Origin: a virus
Strand: one strand, 5' to 3'
DNA length: 20,803 nt
IMG/VR virus record: IMGVR_UViG_3300037189_009730
Coordinates: 1-20,803 of that record
The notes beneath the pieces are model-generated. The model was not told the origin of the DNA. It did not search any database and saw only the letters and a program-made list of their open reading frames with translations. A program made the position numbers and the translations under genes. Position 1 is the stretch's first letter. Every line of letters begins with the position of its first letter. Below, one piece after another: positions 5,737 through 20,499 of the stretch.

Positions 5737-6444
5737 TTATTTAGCAGTGATTATGTGCATAGTTTTTCTTATGATTCCAGGCTGAACCAGGCTCAACAAG
5801 GTACACCAGCTTTCCGCATCGTGATCCACAAAAAAATAATCCTGCGTGCGATTAAAGGGTTGATCAATCCAGCGTGTCAGGGCTGGACTCAAACGCACAT
5901 GAGCACTTTGCGTGATTAAAAATTCTTCCAGGCGGTATCGTTGGTCTGCAGTCAACTTGCACATGATCAAATAGGTGCGGAATTGATGTCGTGGATTTCG
6001 CAATTGGATTGTGTTTTTGGGCCTGACTATTTGGGCCTGGGTATAGGTTTTATAGGTCAGTTCGGGCATGTTGTTTAACTGTTCCAACAAGTCTAGGTCA
6101 TTGCTGTAGACATAGCCTTGATTCATGCTGACCACCAGTTTGAAATCAACTGACGTGTTCAACAATGCTTCTGCTAGGGTGTGCAGATCTTGCACAGTTT
6201 TTTCTGTGATGTCTTTCCAGCGCCGGCTCATGATAATGCCGTGATTTCGGCGGCCCGAGACCCAGCGTTGTTGAGCTATTTCGCGCCACTGTTTCCTGCG
6301 TTCAATCATGTCGTCTATGTGAGCATGATCCAACACTCGTAGACAACTGATTTCGTCTAAATGAAACCCCAAACAGTGAGTGAATCGATCATAAAACCGT
6401 CGATCTTTGCGGACAGGTTTAAACTTGAGGTTTGTCAAGAACAA
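5737..6444 (-). CDS. Conserved phage hypothetical protein (TTG start)
   Basis: 235 residues, basic, Arg- and His-rich, no membrane segment. The frame begins at a TTG codon (6444) inside the 3' end of the clpA-like gene (26-nt overlap), with AAGGA 4 nt before it; no in-frame ATG lies near. Notable segments are YSNDLDLLEQL, HQFRTYLIMCKLTADQ and YFFVDHDAESWCTLLSLVQPGIIRK. I recall this type of protein in marine T4-like phages without a function. The overlap with the chaperone gene suggests co-expression. No catalytic motif identified. Confidence 0.75.
   Translation of the reverse strand: MFLTNLKFKPVRKDRRFYDRFTHCLGFHLDEISCLRVLDHAHIDDMIERRKQWREIAQQRWVSGRRNHGIIMSRRWKDITEKTVQDLHTLAEALLNTSVDFKLVVSMNQGYVYSNDLDLLEQLNNMPELTYKTYTQAQIVRPKNTIQLRNPRHQFRTYLIMCKLTADQRYRLEEFLITQSAHVRLSPALTRWIDQPFNRTQDYFFVDHDAESWCTLLSLVQPGIIRKTMHIITAK
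5738..5745 (-). promoter_or_regulatory. Late promoter core GCTAAATA
   Basis: GCTAAATA on the minus strand, 7 nt before the ATG at 5730, within the last codons of the 235-residue gene. Predicted near-leaderless transcript for the small structural-type trio. Confidence 0.6.
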
Positions 6445-8689
6445 TGTATCCTTGCTCGTCTACCATGGGCATCGCTGTGGATTGATCTATCTGGAATTCA
6501 ACTTGGTCATTGATCATGTCAGCCTGTATGTTACAGTTTTCCAATTGGTCAAACAAGATGCGTTTGCTGAGTGGCACACGGATCAGTTCATCAATCTTGC
6601 GGTTCAAGGGTCTAGCACCCATCTTGGGATCATAGCCTTTGTCGGCCAGCATGTCTATGACACTTTCGCTGAGATTGAGACGTATGTTTTTGTTGGCCAG
6701 GCTGGACTTGAGTTCATCCACAAACTTGATCACAATCTTCTTGATGGCAAGTGTGTCTAACTTGGCAAACCGGCATACTTGATCAATACGATTGCGTAGT
6801 TCGGGTTTGAAAAAGTCTTTCATGGCTTTATCTTCTGAACCTGTGCGTTCCAGGCTCTGACCAAATCCAATGTTGTTGTTTTCATTGTCTCTGGCACCCA
6901 GATTTGACGTCATGATAATGATGCAGTTTTTGAGGTTTACAGTCTTGCCATTGGCACTGGTAATTCTAGCTTCGTCTAGGATCTGCAACATGATGTTGAT
7001 CACATCTGGATGCGCTTTTTCAATTTCATCAAACAGCAACACAGCATAGGGATTCTTTGACACATCCGAAATCAACTTGCCACCACCTACATTGCCATCT
7101 TCAAAGCCCACATAGCCCGGAGGAGCACCAATCAGACTCGATACTGTGTGACGCTCTTGATACTCACTCATGTCATATTTCAGCAGTTTCATGTCAAGAT
7201 TTTCTGCCAGCAACTTGGCCAGTTCTGTTTTGCCTGTGCCAGTGGGGCCTAAAAACAAAAAGCTGGCAATGGGCCGCCGGTCGTTGCCAATGCCAGAGAA
7301 GTTGATGTACACACGGTCCAACACACTATCTACCGCGGCATCTTGCCCGTAGAGTTTTTGTTTGATATTGCTTTCCAATTCCATGATCTTGACACTGCGT
7401 TCATTTTGCAAACGATCCACAGGCACATCAGTGGTGCGACTTAGCTGTGCCATGATCATGTCGCGGGTCACTGTGATTAGTCCAGCGTCTTTGACTCGCT
7501 CTCGAGCACAGGCTCCGTCCAGGAGATCAATGCTCTTGTCTGGATTCTTGCGGTCATGTATGTAACGACCCGACAGTTCTACTGCGGCTGTGATGGCTTC
7601 AGTGTCTATGAGCACGTTGTGGAACAGTTCCAGTCTGGGACTCAACCCAATCAAGATCTGTTCAGTGGTTCCAGCATCGGGCTCGTCTATGGCCACACGA
7701 TGGAATCGCCGCATGAGCGCACGATCTTTTTCAAAACTTTCGTAGTATTCTTCCCAAGTAGTATTAGCAATTACCTTTAACACGCCCTTGGTAATAGCCG
7801 GCTTGATCATGTTGGCCATGTCTAGTGTGCTTTGACTCGATGAACCGGCACCTTTCATGGTGTGTGCCTCGTCAATGAACAGTATACACTTTTTCTTGGC
7901 ACTGAGAGCACCAATGACCTGTTTGAACTTTTCTTCAAACTCGCCGCGATACTTTGATCCGGCCAACAAGCTACCCACTTCTAAACTCCATAGTTCGTGA
8001 TCCTTGAGAAAGTTGGGCACACGACCTGCCACCATCTCCTGGGCTAGGCCTTCCACTATGGCGGTTTTGCCCACGCCCGGATCTCCAACCATGAGCACGT
8101 TGGCCTTGAACTTGCGGGCCAACACTGTGATCATTTCGTCTAGTTCTTCACTGCGACCAATCATGGGTTCCAGGCGATCTTCCTTGGCCAGGGCAGTGAG
8201 GTTCACACAGTGCTCTGTGAGTATTTCTGTGGCCTGCTGATCTGTGAACACCACGTCACTTTGTTTGTAATTGGCTTGCCAAAATTCCACAAACTCGGCT
8301 TTTTTAACTCCGTATTTGAGAAGAAAATAATGAGCATGGCTATTGTTTTCAGCCATCATGGCCAGGTATAGATCCAAGGTGCTGACAGTTCTACGGCCTG
8401 TGAATAACACCTGTGTAAGGGCGCGATTAAAAACCCTTTCGAGAGCATTGGTCTTTTTGGGTTGCACTTCTTTGGTAGTGATCAAGCTGGCACAGCTTTC
8501 CAAATAGGCATCTAGTTCTTGATCAAACAAGTTGAGGTCTGTGCCAAATTTTTCCAGCACACGACGAAACGGTTCGTGGCGTATCATGCTCAACAACACA
8601 TGTTCAGTCATCACATACTCGTGGCGACGATCTCGGGCCAGCTTGACAGCGGCATCAATGATTTGTTCAATTTCGGGATTGTTTTGCAT
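6419..8689 (-). CDS. clpA-like: ClpA-like AAA+ protein unfoldase
   Basis: 756 residues from the ATG at 8689, matching E. coli ClpA length. This start is preferred over the in-frame ATG at 8746 because AAGGA stands just upstream and the Clp N-domain begins here (EIEQIIDAAVKLARDRRHE). Order: N-domain 1-140; first AAA+ with Walker A GDPGVGKT (202-209) and Walker B ILFIDEAH (269-276); second AAA+ with GPTGTGKT (481-488) and VLLFDE (550-555); C-terminal small domain to 756. There is no ClpB middle domain. A tripeptide IGF at 607-609, in NNNIGFGQS, sits where ClpA has its IGL ClpP-docking loop. It therefore probably unfolds proteins and may feed host ClpP. It follows dnaJ and has its own sigma70-type promoter. 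Confidence 0.93.
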   Translation of the reverse strand: MQNNPEIEQIIDAAVKLARDRRHEYVMTEHVLLSMIRHEPFRRVLEKFGTDLNLFDQELDAYLESCASLITTKEVQPKKTNALERVFNRALTQVLFTGRRTVSTLDLYLAMMAENNSHAHYFLLKYGVKKAEFVEFWQANYKQSDVVFTDQQATEILTEHCVNLTALAKEDRLEPMIGRSEELDEMITVLARKFKANVLMVGDPGVGKTAIVEGLAQEMVAGRVPNFLKDHELWSLEVGSLLAGSKYRGEFEEKFKQVIGALSAKKKCILFIDEAHTMKGAGSSSQSTLDMANMIKPAITKGVLKVIANTTWEEYYESFEKDRALMRRFHRVAIDEPDAGTTEQILIGLSPRLELFHNVLIDTEAITAAVELSGRYIHDRKNPDKSIDLLDGACARERVKDAGLITVTRDMIMAQLSRTTDVPVDRLQNERSVKIMELESNIKQKLYGQDAAVDSVLDRVYINFSGIGNDRRPIASFLFLGPTGTGKTELAKLLAENLDMKLLKYDMSEYQERHTVSSLIGAPPGYVGFEDGNVGGGKLISDVSKNPYAVLLFDEIEKAHPDVINIMLQILDEARITSANGKTVNLKNCIIIMTSNLGARDNENNNIGFGQSLERTGSEDKAMKDFFKPELRNRIDQVCRFAKLDTLAIKKIVIKFVDELKSSLANKNIRLNLSESVIDMLADKGYDPKMGARPLNRKIDELIRVPLSKRILFDQLENCNIQADMINDQVEFQIDQSTAMPMVDEQGYIVLDKPQV

Positions 8690-8719
8690 ATGGTCCTTGT
8701 TTTGTTTCGCCCAACTTAT

Positions 8720-8748
8720 AGTATATACTAATTTACTGCAAATCACAA
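8720..8748 (-). promoter_or_regulatory. Sigma70-type promoter for the clpA-like gene
   Basis: TTGTGA (8743-8748), 17-nt spacer, TATACT (8720-8725) on the minus strand: a 4/6 -35 box and a 5/6 -10 box at optimal spacing. The start would fall near 8713, leaving a leader of about 24 nt with the AAGGA ribosome binding site. This suggests recognition by host RNA polymerase before the late switch. Confidence 0.55.
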
Positions 8749-8758
8749 TCTATAAGGA

Positions 8759-8766
8759 TATTTATT
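8759..8766 (-). promoter_or_regulatory. Possible late promoter core AATAAATA upstream of clpA-like gene
   Basis: AATAAATA on the minus strand overlapping the dnaJ stop codon, about 70 nt before the clpA-like ATG. It matches the late core but is AT-rich and far from the gene, so it is weaker evidence than the others. Confidence 0.3.
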
Positions 8767-9556
8767 TGGTAGTTTTTTCTATCATAGCCATGAGTTCTGG
8801 ATCGATGTGATCTGGAATACGGGCCTGTAATTTGACCAATAAATCACCAGATGATTTGTCACGCCCGGTCAATCCTCGTCCACGCAAACGCACTGTGGTT
8901 CCAGGTTGCGTCCTTGCTGATATGGTCAGATCCAACGAATTACCAAGAATATCTTTGACAATGGTATTTCCTCCGGTGATCAACTGCCAGATGTCCACAG
9001 GGTGTTCCAAATAGAGATTCAATGCTTGTCGTGTAAATCGAGCATCTGGATGTACACGATAGGTTATCACAAGGTCCATGCCGGCCATTGGACCAGCACC
9101 GGGGTACTGCACAGTGTCACCATCATCTATGCCAGGAGGAATTTCAATTTCCACTGCCTGTGTACCTTGTTGGGTGCCCACACCAATGGTTCGTCGGCCA
9201 CCTTCGGCTATGTCTCGCAAGGTTATCCACAGGCTCATCCTGGCCTGCTGATGTCGTTGTTGCTGTTGTTGCCCTGGATGTTGGAATCGTGTGCCAAATA
9301 TGTCAAATATGGTCTGAAAGTCAAACGGCGCATCTGCTCTAAAGCCTCCGCCCATGCCACCAAAGCCGGGATTGTCATGGGCCGCACGACGATTGGGATC
9401 ACTCAAGGTATCGTAGGCTGCTTGTATGTCTTGAAAAGTTTTGGTGTCACCACCGCGGTCAGGATGATGCTGACTGGCCAACTTGCGATAGGCACGTTTG
9501 ATTTCGTCTGGACCGGCGTTGCGATCAACGCCCAGGGTTTGGTAGGGATTTTGCAT
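8762..9556 (-). CDS. dnaJ-like: DnaJ/CbpA-type J-domain co-chaperone
   Basis: 264 residues. The J domain (about 3-65) has the HPD tripeptide at 31-33 in SQHHPDRGGD, needed to stimulate DnaK ATPase. A Gly/Phe-rich linker (about 62-95, GFGGMGGGF, FDIFGTRF) leads into a DnaJ C-terminal substrate-binding region (about 105-255) with IPPGIDDGDTVQYPG and RLRGRGL. The CxxCxGxG zinc finger is absent, so it resembles CbpA rather than canonical DnaJ, and it is shorter than CbpA (about 306). No Shine-Dalgarno is seen before the ATG. A perfect TATAAT box stands at 9583-9588. It lies directly upstream of the clpA-like gene, suggesting a chaperone/unfoldase pair. Probably recruits host DnaK. Confidence 0.92.
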   Translation of the reverse strand: MQNPYQTLGVDRNAGPDEIKRAYRKLASQHHPDRGGDTKTFQDIQAAYDTLSDPNRRAAHDNPGFGGMGGGFRADAPFDFQTIFDIFGTRFQHPGQQQQQRHQQARMSLWITLRDIAEGGRRTIGVGTQQGTQAVEIEIPPGIDDGDTVQYPGAGPMAGMDLVITYRVHPDARFTRQALNLYLEHPVDIWQLITGGNTIVKDILGNSLDLTISARTQPGTTVRLRGRGLTGRDKSSGDLLVKLQARIPDHIDPELMAMIEKTTK

Positions 9557-9806: not shown

Positions 9807-10283
9807 TTAGATTTCTGGATGTGGCGGCTGTTGTGGTGCTCCAAATGCTGGTGCTGGTGCTGGTGTTGTTTTTGCTGCAGGTGCTCCAAATGCGGGAACA
9901 GTGCTGACTGAGTTCCCACCTAGCGGTGCCGAACCAAAACTAGGTGCAGGCGCGGCTATTGCAGGTGTAGGCGGTGCGATACCACCCACATTGGCACCGT
10001 TGAGTTTTTCTTGTGTGCGACCATAAGCGGCGATACCCAAGATAGCACCCATACTTATGTGGAACAGTCCCGCACCTTGCAGTGTAATAGGCATCCACTG
10101 GCTTTCTACCTTGCCGTCGCCAATGGTTTGAACCAGGCTCCATAGGATAGGAAATATCACAAAGTCCATTATGCAGGTAAGCATATAGACGTATCCCATA
10201 AGCGGTCTCCACTTTGAGTTCATCCAGTCTTCTTTTTTCTTTTCGCTATCACTCATTTTAGCATAATCTTCGGCTGTGGGCAT
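9807..10283 (-). CDS. Holin-like membrane protein (3TM/GTA-type) with Pro/Ala-rich tail
   Basis: 158 residues. SKWRPLMGYVYMLTCIMDFVIFPILWSL (about 23-50) and LQGAGLFHISMGAILGIAAYGRT (68-90) are two strong hydrophobic segments in the layout of the 'holin of 3TMs'/GTA-holin type, where a K/W-R-P-motif precedes the first helix. Holins form inner-membrane lesions that release or activate the endolysin. Residues 98-158 form an unusual Pro/Ala/Gly tail with FGSAP, FGAP and FGAP repeats. AAGGAG stands about 7 nt before the ATG. The endolysin and spanin genes lie 5 kb upstream in a separate unit, so the lysis genes are split. Confidence 0.75.
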   Translation of the reverse strand: MPTAEDYAKMSDSEKKKEDWMNSKWRPLMGYVYMLTCIMDFVIFPILWSLVQTIGDGKVESQWMPITLQGAGLFHISMGAILGIAAYGRTQEKLNGANVGGIAPPTPAIAAPAPSFGSAPLGGNSVSTVPAFGAPAAKTTPAPAPAFGAPQQPPHPEI

Positions 10284-11558: not shown

Positions 11559-12034
11559 GGTGTTCCTATCCAGGCATTGACCCGCAATCCTTCAGGATGC
11601 AACCGGAAAGCAGCCATGGTCCTGTGCCAACCTTCCCATAGTTCCAGACCTCGGGCTGTTTTTAGCAAGATCACGGGTGGCAAATTCTCCATGCCATTCT
11701 CGCGCACCAACTCCAAGGCCTGTTCAAATCTTTCTCTATCTCTGGGAATCATGAAAGGATTCTTGTTGCCAAAGTCTCGTTTGATCTTCATGCGGTATCT
11801 GGTGTCAGCATTCAGCATGTCAAAAGTCAAGGGCATGTTCTGAACCAACTGCCAACGCTCTACCATGGTGGCCAACTCACGCACATGGTCCAGTTTCATT
11901 TCAAGATCCTGCGGTGATTTTATCTTGGCGATCACCATGTCCTTGAGCACATAGTCGGGCCAGTCCGGTAGTTCATCACGCAGGATGTCCATAACTCCGC
12001 GTTGCACTTCTGTGATAAAGTCTTGAGCTCTCAT
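11555..12034 (-). CDS. ParB/sulfiredoxin-like fold protein with T4-type capsid-targeting N terminus
   Basis: 159 residues. Residues 1-9, MRAQDFITE, closely resemble the T4 internal-protein capsid-targeting peptide MKTYQEFIAE, including the F-I-x-E end that the prohead protease cleaves. The C-terminal part has LPPVILLKTARGLELWEGWHRTMAA (about 117-141), where GWHR matches the GxHR/GxxR signature of ParB-like and sulfiredoxin-like folds. It overlaps both neighbours by 4 nt (ATGA at each end), so it is translationally coupled between the lipoprotein and kinase-like genes. Likely head-associated, possibly injected with DNA; nuclease, ATPase or other activity is not established. Confidence 0.75.
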   Translation of the reverse strand: MRAQDFITEVQRGVMDILRDELPDWPDYVLKDMVIAKIKSPQDLEMKLDHVRELATMVERWQLVQNMPLTFDMLNADTRYRMKIKRDFGNKNPFMIPRDRERFEQALELVRENGMENLPPVILLKTARGLELWEGWHRTMAAFRLHPEGLRVNAWIGTP

Positions 12035-12435
12035 CGTCTGGGTCGTCCTGCTGTGACACGCTGTATGAGTTCGGCGCTGTGTTCGATATTGTTGTATTTT
12101 AGTTTACAAAACACAGGGCTCACAGAGCCTCGACCGTAGGCAGTGTTGAGCCCTTGAGCAATTTCATTCAAAGCTCGTGAGGCTTTGATTCCATTGTCGT
12201 TCCTGGGTATGTATTGTTCATAGTGTTCAAACAGCTCAGTTCTAGCGGCCATGGCCTGTGCGTTGACTGGAGCCAGCACAGGATTGTCACACTGTTTTCT
12301 ATATTGTCCAGCTGCGGCACGGATCTCTGTGATCTGTAGGTATTCCGTGGCATCGTAGGGCGCCATCCGGTAGGCATCCCAAAGAGCACAACTGCTCAAC
12401 AACGCTGTGGAAAGTGCAAGGACAATTCGTTTCAT
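12031..12435 (-). CDS. Phage lipoprotein
   Basis: 134 residues. MKRIVLALSTALLSSCALWD is a lipoprotein signal sequence with lipobox LSSC and C16 as the lipidated residue. The mature part has two further cysteines and a largely helical pattern (QAMAARTELFEHYEQY, KASRALNEIAQGLNTAYG). It could be a second outer-membrane spanin or a superinfection-exclusion lipoprotein, but no family is recognised. It leads a multigene unit and is preceded, 5 nt before its ATG, by a late core with no Shine-Dalgarno. It overlaps the ParB-like gene by 4 nt. Confidence 0.78.
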   Translation of the reverse strand: MKRIVLALSTALLSSCALWDAYRMAPYDATEYLQITEIRAAAGQYRKQCDNPVLAPVNAQAMAARTELFEHYEQYIPRNDNGIKASRALNEIAQGLNTAYGRGSVSPVFCKLKYNNIEHSAELIQRVTAGRPRR

Positions 12436-12448: not shown

Positions 12449-13022
12449 TTCTCAGCGTACTTGTGCTAGATGACCCACGAGCAGGGTGCAACACCACCAA
12501 ATCACGGTGGTAAAATGTCCACGGAAGAACTAGATCGCCCAGGTGCTTGTCCACGGCTTGTGCGCCATGCGTTTGGGCATGTGTGATAAGGGTTTGGGCC
12601 TGTGCTGGAGTTAGGCTGTAGGCATGAGCACCTTTGCTCCATAGTCCAAAAGCAGGATTGGTTTTGCATTCTGCTGTGGTGAATAATTTTACCAGTTGTT
12701 TATCTATGTTCAAATCTTCAGGCCATGGCGCTGTAACCAAGGCATCATGTTCAAGAATCACCGCAGGCTCGTTGGTATCTGCACACTGTTGCCACAGGGC
12801 AAAATGACTCAGCCAACAACCTTGAGCGCCAGGACGACGTGTCATCTTTCCAGTTTGGCTCATGACTACATCAATCTTTTTCCAATCTTGTTCAGAGACC
12901 TGCGAGCCATCTACAGCAGGAAATATTTCGTATGACCAGCCATGCTTTTCAAGACTTTGCACACAGTCACCTATGACTCTAGATGACTTGTGTGCAATTA
13001 TGTAACACCTAGGTTGGTGCAT
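12444..13022 (-). CDS. Glycosyltransferase family 25 (LPS-type galactosyltransferase-like)
   Basis: 192 residues. The family-25 layout is visible: CYIIAHKSSR near the N terminus, FPAVDGSQVS (about 34-43), GCWLSHFALWQQC (about 68-80), then AVILEHDA (about 87-94) carrying the acidic ExDA site, and GAHAYSLTPAQAQTL at about 131-145. These enzymes add hexoses to lipooligosaccharide or proteins. In a phage it could alter host LPS to exclude competitors or decorate virion proteins; the acceptor is unknown. Its ATG overlaps the aceA stop by 1 nt (TGATG), so it is translationally coupled to isocitrate lyase. The length is close to short phage GT25 domains. Confidence 0.87.
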   Translation of the reverse strand: MHQPRCYIIAHKSSRVIGDCVQSLEKHGWSYEIFPAVDGSQVSEQDWKKIDVVMSQTGKMTRRPGAQGCWLSHFALWQQCADTNEPAVILEHDALVTAPWPEDLNIDKQLVKLFTTAECKTNPAFGLWSKGAHAYSLTPAQAQTLITHAQTHGAQAVDKHLGDLVLPWTFYHRDLVVLHPARGSSSTSTLRK

Positions 13023-14302
13023 CAGTGGAACTGTTCTTCTTCCGTGCTGCCTTTCAGGGCCTGCGTTGACGATGTGGCTTCGATGGTAGTTGTGACCCGG
13101 TCAAAATATCCTGTTCCAACTTCGCGTTGGTGCTTGACCGCTTCAAAGCCTCGGGCTCCGTCGGTGAATTCTCGTTGTTGTAGTTCCACAAACGCAGACA
13201 TGCCGTTCCTAGCATAGCCATGAGCCAGATCAAACATTCCGTGATTAAGAGCATGAAACCCAGCGAGAGTAATGAACTGGAACCGGTAGCCCATTGCTCC
13301 AAGTTCACGTTGGAAAACGCTGATTGTTGTATCATCTAAGTTTTTCTTCCAATTGAAACTTGGCGAACAGTTGTATGCCAGCATCTTGTTGGGATATCGG
13401 TCATGTATTGCATCTGCAAAACGCCGGGCGAAATCCAAATCTGGTGTGCCTGTTTCGCACCAGATCAAGTCGGCATAGGCCGCATAAGCAAGCCCACGGC
13501 TCACAGCCTGTTCAAACCCGTTGCGGGTCACATAGAAACCTTCCACTGTGCGCTCACCTGTGAGGAATGGACGATCATTTTCATCCACATCCGACGTGAC
13601 CAAGTTGGCAGCTTCAGCATCGGTGCGTGCCAACAACACTGTGGGCACACCCATGACATCAGCGGCCAGTCTTGCAGCATTGAGTTTGTTCACAGCTTCA
13701 CGAGTAGGGATCAAGACCTTGCCACCCATGTGTCCGCACTTCTTGGCCGAAGCCAACTGATCTTCAAAGTGTACGCCTGCGGCGCCGGCTTCGATCATGG
13801 CTTTCATTAATTCATATGCGTTCAGTACACCACCAAAGCCTGACTCAGCATCGGCCACTATGGGTTGGAAAAAGTCTAAATCGCCTGAGCCTTCCATCCA
13901 TTGAATTTGATCTGCTCGTGCAAATGTGTTGTTGATTTTGCGTACCATTTCTGGCACTGAATTCACAGCATAAAGACTTTGATCTGGATACATTTGCCCT
14001 GACGTGTTGGCATCTGCGGCCACTTGCCAGCCACTCAAGTAGATACCTCGGAGTCCGGCCTTGACCTGTTGCAGGGCCTGCATGCCTGTGAGTGCGCCCA
14101 AGGTGGCCACATATGGCTCTTCCAACAGACTCATCCATAACTTGTTGGCACCACGTTCGGCCAAACTGTACTCCACAGGATTACTTCCTTGCAGGTCTAC
14201 CACCTGTTCTGCTGTGTAGTTGCGTCGGATATGGTCCCAGCGTGGATTGCTTTCCCATTCTTTTCTGATGTGTGTGGCTCGTGCTTTTTTGTTCAACGAC
14301 AT
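13022..14302 (-). CDS. aceA: Isocitrate lyase
   Basis: 426 residues, essentially full length (E. coli AceA 434). It cleaves isocitrate to glyoxylate and succinate, the first step of the glyoxylate shunt. All main motifs are intact: [30 protein letters not shown], the signature KKCGHMGGK with catalytic C189, [33 protein letters not shown] and [11 protein letters not shown]; the end GSTEEEQF matches the bacterial enzyme. The start at 14302 (MSLNKK) is chosen over an upstream in-frame TTG (14317) because AAGGA lies 7 nt before it. It follows the o-spanin gene by 21 nt and overlaps GT25 by 1 nt, so it is embedded in the phage late unit. No host-type flanking genes, and apparently functional. Its partner malate synthase (aceB/glcB) is not in the window. 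Confidence 0.96.
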
Positions 14303-14323
14303 TTTGCTTCCTTTCAATGGTTA

Positions 14324-14593
14324 TTATTTGCCGATACTGTTGTAAATCTTTTGTTGATTGTCATACCACTGAGTCCAGCCGTCAGCACGATTCTTGCACT
14401 CGTAGTAGAGCGCATAGTTGGCCGTGACCACTTCCAAGAGACTACTTAGCTGGTGGTCTTGCGGGTTGACTTGTGCTAGGCTTGGGCAGGGTTCCCGCAG
14501 CTCCTGAGGACCTTCCGGAAATTTTATTTTGACTGGCACTGTTGAGCATCCAACAAGCGATACCAATGAGATAATAAGTAAAAAACTTTTCAT
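14324..14593 (-). CDS. Outer-membrane spanin-like lipoprotein (Rz1-like)
   Basis: 89 residues from ATG 14593 (an in-frame upstream start at 14608 is less likely; AAGG lies before the inner one). MKSFLLIISLVSLVGCSTVP is a lipoprotein signal with lipobox LVGC and C16. The short mature chain has Pro-containing N-terminal segments (VPVKIKFPEGPQ, EPCPSL) and the conserved-looking end VVTANYALYYECKNRADGWTQWYD, typical of phage Rz1/o-spanin lipoproteins. It would pair with the inner spanin to fuse inner and outer membranes at lysis. It is separated from the i-spanin gene by a homing endonuclease gene, whose stop it overlaps (ATGA). Confidence 0.85.
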   Translation of the reverse strand: MKSFLLIISLVSLVGCSTVPVKIKFPEGPQELREPCPSLAQVNPQDHQLSSLLEVVTANYALYYECKNRADGWTQWYDNQQKIYNSIGK

Positions 14594-15153
14594 TGGGCAA
14601 CCTTGCATTTGTCAAAATGCCAGCGTTTGGCATTACCAATATTCATTACTTTACGACAATGGGGACATTCTAAATCTCCGCCTAAATGTTGTCCTTTGAA
14701 CAAATCTTTTAAGCGTAAATAATGGTCTGGTTTGATTGCGTTTTGCCAGTTTCCTTTGCGACCTCTATTATAATTATTCAATGATATTTTAGTCTTGGTT
14801 TCTGATGTATGTTTTCTACCCAGAGCAGCGGTAGAGAGTTTTTGTATTGTTTCTTGTGAATAGCAGTCAGACTTTCCTTTGTTCCATGGCTCGGCCTGGC
14901 CACCAAATCTTTTGTTGTAGGTTTGTTCTGGAGTTTTTACAAGCTCTTTAATAAGTTTTTGCTCAACAAAAAAAGCTTCTTCGGCTGACCCTACAAACAA
15001 TATTTCTCGAGTAAAATCGTTTGGACGCTTGTAATACTCTTCAAGTAAATATTGTCCAGAACTGATGTAACCATCATCTGGAGTGCCTTTATGATATCCA
15101 ACATAAACTTTTCTAGTAACATTATCTGTCCATTGATAAACAAATGCTTCCAT
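14590..15153 (-). CDS. GIY-YIG homing endonuclease (Seg-like) with NUMOD3 motif and zinc finger
   Basis: 187 residues. The GIY-YIG domain (1-85) is in the variant form VYQ (5-7) ... YVGYHKG (17-23), with a metal-binding-type glutamate in FFVEQKLIKEL (about 61-71) and YNKRFGGQ closing the domain. A NUMOD3-type DNA-binding motif, GRKHTSETKTKIS, is at 112-124. A C2HC zinc finger at the C terminus uses C163, C166, H179 and C183. The gene is AT-richer than its neighbours, a sign of transfer. It overlaps the i-spanin stop by 1 nt (TAATG) and the o-spanin start by 4 nt (ATGA). It is free-standing: I see no intron. Probably spreads by cutting relatives that lack it. Confidence 0.9.
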   Translation of the reverse strand: MEAFVYQWTDNVTRKVYVGYHKGTPDDGYISSGQYLLEEYYKRPNDFTREILFVGSAEEAFFVEQKLIKELVKTPEQTYNKRFGGQAEPWNKGKSDCYSQETIQKLSTAALGRKHTSETKTKISLNNYNRGRKGNWQNAIKPDHYLRLKDLFKGQHLGGDLECPHCRKVMNIGNAKRWHFDKCKVAQ

Positions 15154-15617
15154 TATTTGGCCCCAGTAGTTTTATTTTGTGATGATTTATTATGTAAATC
15201 GATAGCAACATCAGGCACACGACACTCAGCGTCAATCTTGCTTGCATTAGCCCGCACGGCGGCTTGGTTTGCATTTTTTACTTCCTGTGTTAATTTTTTA
15301 TTCTGCTGGAGCTGATTATCTAACTTTTTATTTGCTTCAGCACTTTGTTTCTCTGCAATGACAATTTTGGCTTCTAGTTCCTTCACACGCTCACGCCATG
15401 CACGTTCTACGTCAGCACCACCTTTGAAGTAGACACCCAATACCAAACATATGACGCCAATGGCCTGTATGGGTCCGCGATACATGTTGAAATAAGGTAC
15501 CCAACGTGCGATCCACGCGGCACTTATGCCTACTAAACCCACGATGATGAGACCATTGACTAAAACTGTGATTAGCCAGTCGGGTATCAGGTTCCAAAGA
15601 AACGCCAACTGCCACAT
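15153..15617 (-). CDS. Inner-membrane spanin-like protein (Rz-like)
   Basis: 154 residues. Two hydrophobic segments (about 14-38 and 47-64) are followed by a long coiled coil (about 70-125, VKELEAKIVIAEKQSAEANKKL and on) and a Cys-containing periplasmic-type tail (AECRVPDVAIDLHNK). This is the architecture of inner-membrane spanins, although two helices instead of one is unusual and the N-terminal part could provide a holin or pinholin function. The gene starts 1 nt inside the endolysin stop (TGATG), forming the lysis unit with it. Its natural partner, the o-spanin-like lipoprotein, lies one gene downstream. Confidence 0.85.
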   Translation of the reverse strand: MWQLAFLWNLIPDWLITVLVNGLIIVGLVGISAAWIARWVPYFNMYRGPIQAIGVICLVLGVYFKGGADVERAWRERVKELEAKIVIAEKQSAEANKKLDNQLQQNKKLTQEVKNANQAAVRANASKIDAECRVPDVAIDLHNKSSQNKTTGAK

Positions 15618-16243
15618 CAGTGACCGCCAAACACATGTAATGCGTGCTGATAATGATTGATTCGGTCGGCCAATCCAATTGTGCCCCCATTTATTCTTTT
15701 GGTCATGGTCAGTATGTCATTCGTGTCGGCATACTGATTCAAGTTGTTGGTTTCCCAGAACCAGCAGGCACTTTGCACAGCGCCCTCGAAAGTTTCCAAG
15801 TAAGCACTGGTTTCCTCCACTGGTGTTTCTATTGAATCAGCAAAGTTTGAGTAGTTGCTCTTGCCTGTGAGCTGGATAAGGCCGCGACCACAATATCTAT
15901 AACCATCGCCCGACTCTTCTGGACCGTTGCCCATTCTGTTGGCATAGATCCTGTTGGCTATGGCTTCGGCCTTGTTGGGCAGGCTGGCATATTGATTGGC
16001 CAACTCATCTGTGGGAAAATACTTGGGAAATATCTTGCGCAGACTTGCGGCACGATAGTTCAAGTTTTCTTTAAGGAATACAAAGCCACCTGACTCATGG
16101 GCGCACTGTGCCAAAAAGGCAGCCACACGCTGTGGGGTGTCAATGCCGTAGTCGGGCAACAGCTTGTTTAGGGCACTACACCACTGATCAATGTAGGGAT
16201 TTTTGGGTATGATCTGGGCCAGTTGTTCTCTAGTAATTTGCAT
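15617..16243 (-). CDS. Endolysin, GH19 chitinase/lysozyme-type
   Basis: 208 residues, a single GH19 domain without signal peptide, hence holin-dependent. It starts MQITREQLAQIIP, then AAFLAQCAHESGGFVFLKENLNY (about 42-64) with the catalytic Glu in AHESGGF, GDGYRYCGRGLIQLTGKSNY (about 112-131), FWETNNLNQYA, and the C-terminal ITKR-type segment TKRINGGTIGLADR (about 182-195). This is the standard GH19 phage lysozyme layout that cleaves the peptidoglycan sugar backbone. AAGGA precedes the ATG in a leader of about 17 nt behind a late core (16266-16273). It opens the endolysin-spanin-aceA-GT25 unit. Confidence 0.93.
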   Translation of the reverse strand: MQITREQLAQIIPKNPYIDQWCSALNKLLPDYGIDTPQRVAAFLAQCAHESGGFVFLKENLNYRAASLRKIFPKYFPTDELANQYASLPNKAEAIANRIYANRMGNGPEESGDGYRYCGRGLIQLTGKSNYSNFADSIETPVEETSAYLETFEGAVQSACWFWETNNLNQYADTNDILTMTKRINGGTIGLADRINHYQHALHVFGGH

Positions 16244-16897: not shown

Positions 16898-17869
16898 TTA
16901 TTTCTCTATCTTAATATTTCGTGCTATGGGTGCAAATGTTGCCCTTAATTCTTCAGCATAGGTCATGACACCCCGGGGTGTTAATTCATCACGATCAATA
17001 ATTATATAGTTTTGTTCAGCCCAGTCTTGATATTCTCGTGACAGTATGGCTCGACTAAACCGGTCCACATACCAGTCTACGATAGTGTTGGGTGTATGTG
17101 GTGGTAACACCACGGTCCACCCTGCATATACTCGAAGCCCAGGAACAACATCACTGAGCAAGGGCACGTTTGGAAGAGCTTTCAACTGTGGACCGCCTGT
17201 GAGTCCAATGGGACGGACCTTGCCAGCTTCAATTAAGGGTCGAGCCACGGCCACGGGCATGATACCAAATTCTGTACCGGACCGACCATCGTAACTGGCC
17301 ACGCTCTGCACAGCAGGTGCTGGGCCTTGGAATGACACGCTTTGTACCTGTCGTGGATCAGCCCGGGTTTTCATCATGATGTATTCATAGGCCATTCTGT
17401 GTGCGCCGCCGCCTACTGCAATATTCACGGCGCGACCAGCAGTGATATATTTGACAAATTCCTGCGGAGTTGTTACCGAGCTTTTGCTCGAAGCCACCAA
17501 CACCAAGGGACTTTTGCCCAGAGTTACCACGGGCCGGAAACTGTTATATTCAAAACGTTTGACGTCACGTTGCCAAATGTCGTTGGTCACAAACAGGCTC
17601 ATGTGGCTAGGCACCATCAAGTGCAGGCCATCGCTGGCGGCTGTCATGAATGCGTTTGATGCCACAGCAGCATCTGCGCCCGGCCGGGTTTCTACAAAAA
17701 AGCTCACGCCAGGATTTTGTTTCATTACGATGTCGCTGGCTTTGCGGAAGCTGAGTTCGTTACCTGATCCAGGAGCAAATCCAATGGTAGTAGTCACGGT
17801 CCGGCTGGGAATCCACTGTGCCCATGCCAGTGCTGGAATCAATAGTAACGCGACTATGATATGTTTCAT
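16898..17869 (-). CDS. TctC/Bug-family solute-binding protein
   Basis: 323 residues, full length for the family. Signal peptide MKHIIVALLLIPALAWA followed by Q18, so it is exported. The tripartite-tricarboxylate-transporter receptor fold is recognisable: TTIGFAPGSGNE (about 27-38), VETRPGADAAVASNAF (about 58-73), DGLHLMVPSH, ITAGRAVNIAVGGGAHRMAYEYI, then GKVRPIGLTGG and LPNVPLLSDVVPG (about 217-245), where VRPIGLTG and LPNVPTL are Bug hallmarks. Such proteins bind citrate or other carboxylates in the periplasm for a TctAB permease, which is not encoded here, so it would have to use a host transporter. AAGGA lies 6 nt before the ATG. It is an unusual phage cargo gene. Confidence 0.88.
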   Translation of the reverse strand: MKHIIVALLLIPALAWAQWIPSRTVTTTIGFAPGSGNELSFRKASDIVMKQNPGVSFFVETRPGADAAVASNAFMTAASDGLHLMVPSHMSLFVTNDIWQRDVKRFEYNSFRPVVTLGKSPLVLVASSKSSVTTPQEFVKYITAGRAVNIAVGGGAHRMAYEYIMMKTRADPRQVQSVSFQGPAPAVQSVASYDGRSGTEFGIMPVAVARPLIEAGKVRPIGLTGGPQLKALPNVPLLSDVVPGLRVYAGWTVVLPPHTPNTIVDWYVDRFSRAILSREYQDWAEQNYIIIDRDELTPRGVMTYAEELRATFAPIARNIKIEK

Positions 17870-19391: not shown

Positions 19392-19952
19392 TTAAATTAT
19401 GCCAGCAGCACTTTGGATGGTTTGTAGTGCTCGATCACGCTTGTCGTAAGTGGTCACAACCGGTATGCCTGCTGCCACACGCATTTCGTTGAGGTCTTTT
19501 TCGTACTTTTCTCTATAGGCTCGGGGACTCAATGGTACCGTGCTGTCAAAGACATCGCGGCTGAATGGAATTTCTTGTCCTCGATAATGCATGGTCCAGT
19601 CTTCAGCACCTTCAAATTCTGTAAGAGTGTTTAGGTCATTCAGCAACTGTTCTACGTTGCCACCGGCTGTGGAGCGGCGACGTATTTCCACATAGACCAA
19701 GTAGCGTCCGGGTTTGATTTCACCTGGGCTACGGTCGGCATCCAACACAAAGTCATAGCCCTTTTCAAACCACATCATGAGGTCCTTGGCTGCTTGATCG
19801 TTACGAACAAAGAAACTGACAACAATGATGTCATCATCATCGCCCATTTTGCTCGAAAACTCGTCCACATGCACGGTAGGCTTCATCAAGCCTTCCATGT
19901 CCTTGAATCCTAGGCTTTCAAATAGCTGGTTGTTGGAGTGTTTGTTGTGCAT
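19392..19952 (-). CDS. Conserved T4-like phage protein of unknown function
   Basis: 186 residues from the ATG at 19952 (AGG 7 nt upstream); in-frame GTG/ATG codons at 19970 and 19967 would extend it. The start lies within the end of the upstream gene (35-nt overlap). DDDDIIVVSFFVRNDQAAKDLMMWFEKGYDFVLDADRSPGE (about 38-78) is a distinctive, acidic alpha/beta segment that I associate with a protein conserved in marine T4-like phages and absent from T4 itself. A helical C-terminal part (RAYREKYEKDLNEMRVAAG) follows. No catalytic motif. Probably works with the 193-residue protein encoded just upstream. Confidence 0.8.
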   Translation of the reverse strand: MHNKHSNNQLFESLGFKDMEGLMKPTVHVDEFSSKMGDDDDIIVVSFFVRNDQAAKDLMMWFEKGYDFVLDADRSPGEIKPGRYLVYVEIRRRSTAGGNVEQLLNDLNTLTEFEGAEDWTMHYRGQEIPFSRDVFDSTVPLSPRAYREKYEKDLNEMRVAAGIPVVTTYDKRDRALQTIQSAAGII

Positions 19953-20499
19953 TTTTGGCCTGTTCATCACTTTGATAACTTTCTTGGTCCAGACCCTGCT
20001 CGTATGCCCGATCTAGGTCTTCCAAATCTATTTCTTCATCTTCCATTTCCACTGATCCTGTGCGTATATCCGTCATCAGTGCTTTGGGCATGGTGATTTC
20101 CACCAGCCAGATTTTCTTTTCTACCAATCTTGCCTTGTGTGTGCCAGGGCGATAGTCGTCAGGGCCTTCAATTTTCATGGGCACTTTCATGGCAGTTTTT
20201 TTGTACTTGACTTCACAGTCAAACGGCAACAATCTGCGGGCACCGCGTGGGTCGGGCATGAGTTTTTCTGGCCACATGAATATGCAGGTCACGCGGTATT
20301 TGCCAATTGTGGGTCCTGAAACCAATTCGCCAATGTACCAGTTTTTAAAAGCATACAAATCCAGCTCGTCCAGCACACGTTCAAAATCTAACAGCGTGAG
20401 CAAACTGCCTTCGCTCATGTAGATGTCTTTGATGTTTTCACTGACCTGCCAATAATCTTCGCCGGACTTGAAAATCGCCTGATCTATAGTTTTGCTCAT
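19918..20499 (-). CDS. Conserved T4-like phage protein of unknown function
   Basis: 193 residues. The block DIYMSEGSLLTLLDFERVLDELDLYAFKNW (about 25-54) and the following YRVTCIFMWPEKLMPDPRGARRL (about 68-90) are a pattern I recognise as highly conserved in marine T4-like phages, without known function. The C terminus is acidic (MEDEEIDLEDLDRAYEQGLDQ), then Gln/Asn-rich. A late core at 20505-20512 lies 5 nt before the ATG and there is no Shine-Dalgarno, so translation is probably from a leaderless mRNA. It overlaps the following gene by 35 nt. Confidence 0.82.
   Translation of the reverse strand: MSKTIDQAIFKSGEDYWQVSENIKDIYMSEGSLLTLLDFERVLDELDLYAFKNWYIGELVSGPTIGKYRVTCIFMWPEKLMPDPRGARRLLPFDCEVKYKKTAMKVPMKIEGPDDYRPGTHKARLVEKKIWLVEITMPKALMTDIRTGSVEMEDEEIDLEDLDRAYEQGLDQESYQSDEQAKNAQQTLQQPAI

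Follow-up and report, generated by a model that had tools for sequence, protein, structure and literature searches.

The window, i.e., the whole stretch of DNA analyzed here (20,803 nt), is an entire 20.8-kb virus record, in which an isocitrate lyase gene (aceA) lies among genes for lysis. The features referred to below are as follows.

9807-10283: holin-like gene (PF11351)
12031..12435, minus strand: small lipoprotein-like gene (g134), which bounds the cargo slot on the right and directly follows the spanin genes in contigs L182 and L196
12444..13022, minus strand: GT25-family glycosyltransferase gene, with a TGATG overlap between its start and the stop of aceA
13022..14302, minus strand: aceA, isocitrate lyase of 426 aa with an ATG start, identified by NCBIfam profile match and active-site alignment
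14303..14323, minus strand: 21-nt leader with a Shine-Dalgarno-like GAAAGGAAG, between the o-spanin-like gene and aceA
14324..14608, minus strand: o-spanin-like lipoprotein gene (phrog_456; PHROGs profile match)
14590..15153, minus strand: homing endonuclease gene (phrog_314; PHROGs profile match), GC 37%
15153..15617, minus strand: i-spanin-like gene (phrog_312; PHROGs profile match)
15617..16243, minus strand: GH19-like endolysin gene (phrog_181; 263.8 bits)
19392-20499: two virion proteins

On the strand of aceA, the endolysin, i-spanin-like, homing endonuclease, and o-spanin-like genes lie upstream and the GT25 gene lies downstream; the spanin-like matches have E values of 6e-5 (i-spanin-like) and 6e-6 (o-spanin-like). 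The 21-nt gap to the o-spanin gene and the TGATG overlap with the GT25 gene, both described in the original prediction, were confirmed. Terminator-like and sigma-70-like sites in this block of the window showed no excess over shuffles worth interpreting, and the window contains no T4 late promoter (TATAAATA). Given the common strand, the spacing, and the lack of terminator-like sites above chance, we infer that aceA is probably co-transcribed with its neighbors. In the window record only, among the lineage mates read, the homing endonuclease gene splits the i-spanin/o-spanin pair, and in L005 and L007 these two genes overlap each other. Elsewhere in the window, a ClpA-like AAA+ ATPase (6419-9556; 796.6 bits against a TIGR02639 cut-off of 993) adjoins a DnaJ-like protein, and this region is conserved throughout the window lineage.

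The 426-aa protein matched the NCBIfam equivalog for isocitrate lyase, PRK15063, at 768.1 bits (cut-off, 562) and TIGR01346 at 604.6 bits (cut-off, 275.9). This full-length match above a curated equivalog cut-off places the protein in the AceA family and bears out the claim that the gene is a complete isocitrate lyase gene. Among solved structures, the Burkholderia isocitrate lyase 3I4E is the nearest (E 1.2e-211, residues 2-425 aligned), and a PHROGs profile search found no family for the protein. For the active site, we used a residue list in M. tuberculosis ICL numbering that comprises the catalytic Cys motif KKCGH and the Mg and substrate residues. When aligned to M. tuberculosis ICL, the window AceA retains all 22 of the checked substrate- and Mg-site residues, in agreement with the prediction that the catalytic residues are kept, and the same 22 positions are identical across 80/80 viral-collection copies and 80/80 bacterial copies. 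Here and below, the viral-collection copies are the best 80 of the 148 confirmed stretches from our virus scan.

The prediction had gone further, stating that every visible catalytic motif is kept; the motifs that it named are indeed present, but there is a conservative A-to-S change at residue 154, which adjoins the catalytic-site residue E153. This residue is Ala in all 80 bacterial copies examined, where the motif reads VADAEAGFGG, and in 75 of the best 80 viral-collection copies; Ser occurs only in the window AceA and in its five lineage mates, L003-L007. Judging from its position, A154S could tune AceA activity. One could go further and regard A154S, which is fixed in the window lineage and found in none of the 80 bacterial copies, as the marker of a shifted specificity, e.g., toward 2-methylisocitrate. 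We consider this very unlikely, since the remaining ligand residues are all of the ICL type, Ala predominates among the viral-collection copies, and methylisocitrate lyase models fail; specifically, PrpB was rejected as the identity of the window AceA at 101.1 bits against a cut-off of 354.4.

By tblastn, aceA was found at the equivalent position, behind the spanin genes, in six other virus contigs from five other metagenomes, namely L003 (18 kb), L004 (337 kb), L005 (35 kb), L006 (320 kb), L007 (236 kb), and L059 (112 kb). In L003, aceA runs directly into the GT25 gene with the same overlap as in the window, and in L004 and L007 no GT25 gene follows aceA. This recurrence upholds the prediction that the gene does not owe its position to a contig join. 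Together with the GC3 of the window aceA, which resembles that of its phage neighbors, it led us to reject a chimera or host contamination. Flanked by endolysin, spanin-like, and virion genes, the window aceA is phage-encoded, as expected of an auxiliary metabolic gene.

The 337-kb and 320-kb records, G002 and G004, each encode a terminase and a Gp23 capsid protein of the T4 type. The closest cultured matches to the G004 capsid, at ~66% identity, are PA5oct-like Pseudomonas phages and Vibrio phage 2.275.O, and the PA5oct group also gives a 38.8% match to a virion protein of the window. These jumbo phages, although nearest in capsid, lack an AceA match: a tblastn search with AceA over 50,697 phage records matched nine records, none of them PA5oct-like or Vibrio phage 2.275.O. 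With the exception of Phage C48C1, the nine look like bacterial DNA, or like more remote lyases, entered under a phage name. Most likely, then, the window lineage consists of jumbo phages with a T4-type capsid that carry aceA as an auxiliary metabolic gene. The window also encodes a TctC-like tricarboxylate receptor that appears to have a signal peptide (16898-17869); G002 has five such genes and G004 has three, seemingly an unusual feature in phages. A link between aceA and this receptor was considered and rejected, a TctC-like gene being present in just 4 of 50 aceA records.

When 127 rows were placed in a tree, the window fell in a single virus-only group of 45 rows (SH-aLRT 96), and in a reduced tree of 56 rows, the 38 viral and 18 bacterial rows were split with 100/95 support. 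The proposed check that phage copies might form a clade apart from host genes was thus answered in the affirmative. The trees place the window AceA beside Burkholderiales-type AceA, and the best full-length bacterial identity, among the matches listed from the species-level collection and from 200 genomes of the order, is 76%, to Burkholderiales. Two partial bacterial copies at 78% (G171 and G223) lie at contig ends with GC-rich neighbors that looked bacterial; they were left out of the trees and not counted against clade exclusivity. Some viral rows fall outside the clade: L053 and L067 lie inside Oxalobacteraceae, L063/L065 lie near Alcaligenaceae, and L074-L082 and C48C1 form separate branches. 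These outlying rows, some of which may be host DNA, were not used for conclusions about the clade. To judge from their placement, aceA was probably acquired by phages on more than one occasion.

Among six aceA copies of the window lineage, dN/dS, the measurement of which had been suggested at the outset, is 0.033-0.073 at dS of up to about 1.6, and the AceA proteins of L004 and L006 are identical at dS 0.24. The gene is under strong purifying selection. With its placement beside Burkholderiales-type AceA, the window aceA has the profile of a host-derived gene maintained in this way.

The slot itself is optional. In L182 and L196, the gene order is kept, g134 directly follows the spanin genes, and aceA is missing. 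In L004 and L006, AceA is 96% identical to that of the window, and the spanins are just 30-57% identical. The leader upstream of the L004 aceA is near-identical to that of the window despite spanins of 30-36% identity, which suggests that leader and aceA move together. L059 presents the reverse arrangement, in that most of the lysis and late genes around its slot share 74-93% identity with those of the window and its AceA, at 74%, belongs to a different phage AceA subclade (grouping with the window lineage was rejected, AU p = 2.4e-5). In L005, aceA is followed by a small ORF, a class II aldolase gene, and then the GT25 gene, and the same ORF/aldolase pair adjoins aceA in other phages. Altogether, these gene orders show that the slot between the spanin genes and the small lipoprotein gene evidently serves as an exchange site for aceA cassettes.

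The original prediction had described aceA as built into a phage lysis operon. A functional relevance of that operon is not supported, given that the slot is empty in two contigs and filled from another clade in L059, and that aceA elsewhere sits beside nrdA/nrdB. Because slots can be empty, the L059 AceA has been swapped, and the same AceA occurs beside different spanins, the lysis position is one landing site, without a functional link to lysis. An optional slot and a gene swapped between phages might also be expected of a passenger host gene, i.e., a chimeric contig or a neutral hitchhiker without a role. However, recurrence in independent metagenomes, dN/dS near 0.04, catalytic residues conserved in all of the best 80 viral-collection copies, and GC3 like that of the phage neighbors make this extremely improbable, and it is largely refuted by these results. 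The window carries a complete, catalytically intact, and constrained aceA of a virus-only clade that moves between large phages.

We then consider the enzymes on either side of the AceA step. As predicted, malate synthase is absent from the annotated genes of the window, and it was above the cut-off in 0 of 50 related virus records; most of these are fragments, and the result holds in records of 316-361 kb. A complete phage-encoded glyoxylate shunt of the aceBA type was accordingly not found in these 50 records. Aconitase, citrate synthase, and serine hydroxymethyltransferase (the last above its cut-off) were likewise not found in 20 virus records, most of them fragments. Since aconitase and citrate synthase (20 records) and malate synthase (50 records) are absent, host enzymes must flank the AceA step. 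A malate synthase match was found in 39 of 60 Burkholderiales genomes, so that a Burkholderiales-type host could often finish the shunt, although the phage's own host may differ.

Elsewhere in the clade, aceA has other company. Of 62 clade contigs, 18 have nrdA/nrdB genes no more than 3 kb from aceA; in the ribonucleotide reductase operons of L009-L012 and L016, aceA lies exactly between the two genes, and in L013 they flank it less tightly. A class II aldolase gene is within 3 kb in 21 of the 62 and a DesA-type desaturase gene in 32. The aldolase is an uncharacterized member of the class II aldolase/adducin family that follows aceA at 21 loci (e.g., L018, L029, L036, and L005), often before a DesA-type fatty-acid desaturase gene. 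Such desaturase genes are common in phage contigs, with at least 598 confirmed stretches, frequently beside nrdA/nrdB (L254-L333). This commonness weakens a functional link between aceA and the desaturase, as does the finding that aceA lies within 5 kb in just 3 of the best 80 desaturase loci (of at least 598 confirmed).

The proximity to ribonucleotide reductase genes raises the possibility that glyoxylate is the key product, serving without malate synthase as a glycine and one-carbon source for purine and thymidylate synthesis, i.e., for nucleotide supply instead of carbon conservation. The lack of malate synthase agrees with this, as does a 2026 lake-sediment study that singles out viral aceA and nrdA as auxiliary metabolic genes without host homologues (PMC12783922). 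However, serine hydroxymethyltransferase is missing from the 20 records, no nucleotide genes lie close to aceA in the window, and the neighborhood seen elsewhere may merely reflect expression timing, so we consider this reading possible but unlikely. A lone isocitrate lyase without malate synthase would also draw isocitrate without completing the cycle. It could thereby withdraw isocitrate from isocitrate dehydrogenase and lower 2-oxoglutarate and NADPH, which would reshape nitrogen signaling or defense and bring no carbon gain. This appears quite unlikely, given that we identified no phage gene acting on isocitrate dehydrogenase and that the loci give no pointer to nitrogen control or defense.

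Our preferred reading, to which we assign a probability of about 0.72, is that the window aceA is an auxiliary metabolic gene of jumbo phages with a T4-type capsid, is maintained by these phages, and encodes a functional isocitrate lyase that would divert host isocitrate. In this scheme, aceA would be expressed together with the late genes around it, using a ribosome-binding site of its own. Isocitrate would come from the host's citrate synthase and aconitase, and AceA would split it into succinate and glyoxylate. Succinate would refill C4 acids, and glyoxylate would be converted to malate by host malate synthase or to glycine by host aminotransferases. The predicted effect is that carbon is spared from two decarboxylations and that C4 acids and nucleotide precursors are fed during infection. 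ICL generally has a lower affinity for isocitrate than isocitrate dehydrogenase has, and overexpression alone may therefore divert little flux. Also counting against this scheme, the lysis neighborhood implies late expression, when added flux has the least time to help; so do the lack of a T4 late-promoter consensus in the window and the possible effect of A154S on activity. In HP1-infected Pseudoalteromonas, no TCA-cycle genes are more strongly overexpressed than those of the host for aceA and aceB (PMC7082346), which indicates that infection can favor the isocitrate lyase branch and that at least one other infection uses it. More tentatively, and with somewhat less than even odds in our estimation, the phage-specific AceA family, kept and exchanged among large phages, may act alone, with no malate synthase, so that a single enzyme redirects the host TCA cycle toward precursors of nucleotides and C4 precursors, its cassette entering nucleotide-synthesis or lysis operons with its own ribosome-binding site.

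Compared with the bacterial AceA of ~430 aa (TIGR01346/PRK15063; Burkholderia 3I4E), the phage protein shares the full length, the checked active-site residues, and up to 76% full-length identity among the matches listed; it differs in its separate clade, in A154S in the window lineage, in its phage neighborhood, and in the lack of malate synthase in the virus records tested. Isocitrate lyase is less unfamiliar as a phage gene than originally supposed, since viral aceA had already been described in several studies (PMC4053976, PMC5332604, PMC10721903, and PMC12783922). In Pacific Ocean viromes, it was reported as an auxiliary metabolic gene and a glyoxylate shunt was proposed (Hurwitz 2013, PMC4053976); in contrast to our case, these were virome gene families with aceB, outside a phage-genome placement or phage clade. 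Viral aceA has also been reported in Antarctic viruses (PMC10721903). The 179-kb T4-like TARA_ERS478052_N000008 carries an aceBA operon (Nishimura 2017, PMC5332604) and, by description as opposed to sequence, resembles our case in that the carrier of aceA is a large phage whose structural genes are T4-like; its aceA is paired with aceB, whereas the window aceA stands alone among lysis genes.

In the open-license literature, we found no report of a solo aceA in jumbo phages, of a phage AceA clade, or of aceA in a lysis cassette. What is new is a large virus-only AceA clade under strong purifying selection, without malate synthase in 50 of 50 records and exchanged as a cassette. Viral isocitrate lyase, previously known from scattered reports, becomes a coherent and testable phage gene family, defined by one clade, strong constraint, the lack of malate synthase in the records tested, a repeated association with ribonucleotide reductase, and cassette exchange at defined sites for which empty-site controls exist. 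Dozens of other large viruses carry close AceA relatives of this family, and one can now ask whether a single enzyme at the isocitrate branch point alters the products of infected cells. The isocitrate lyase of Phage C48C1 (OQ984149, Kyanoviridae, 156 kb) is 57.6% identical, lies a few genes after the endolysin, and forms a long separate branch outside the phage AceA clade. Similarity identifies its coding sequence (L163; OQ984149.1 44175-45416, WJE87928.1) as that of an isocitrate lyase, although the annotation reads hypothetical protein.
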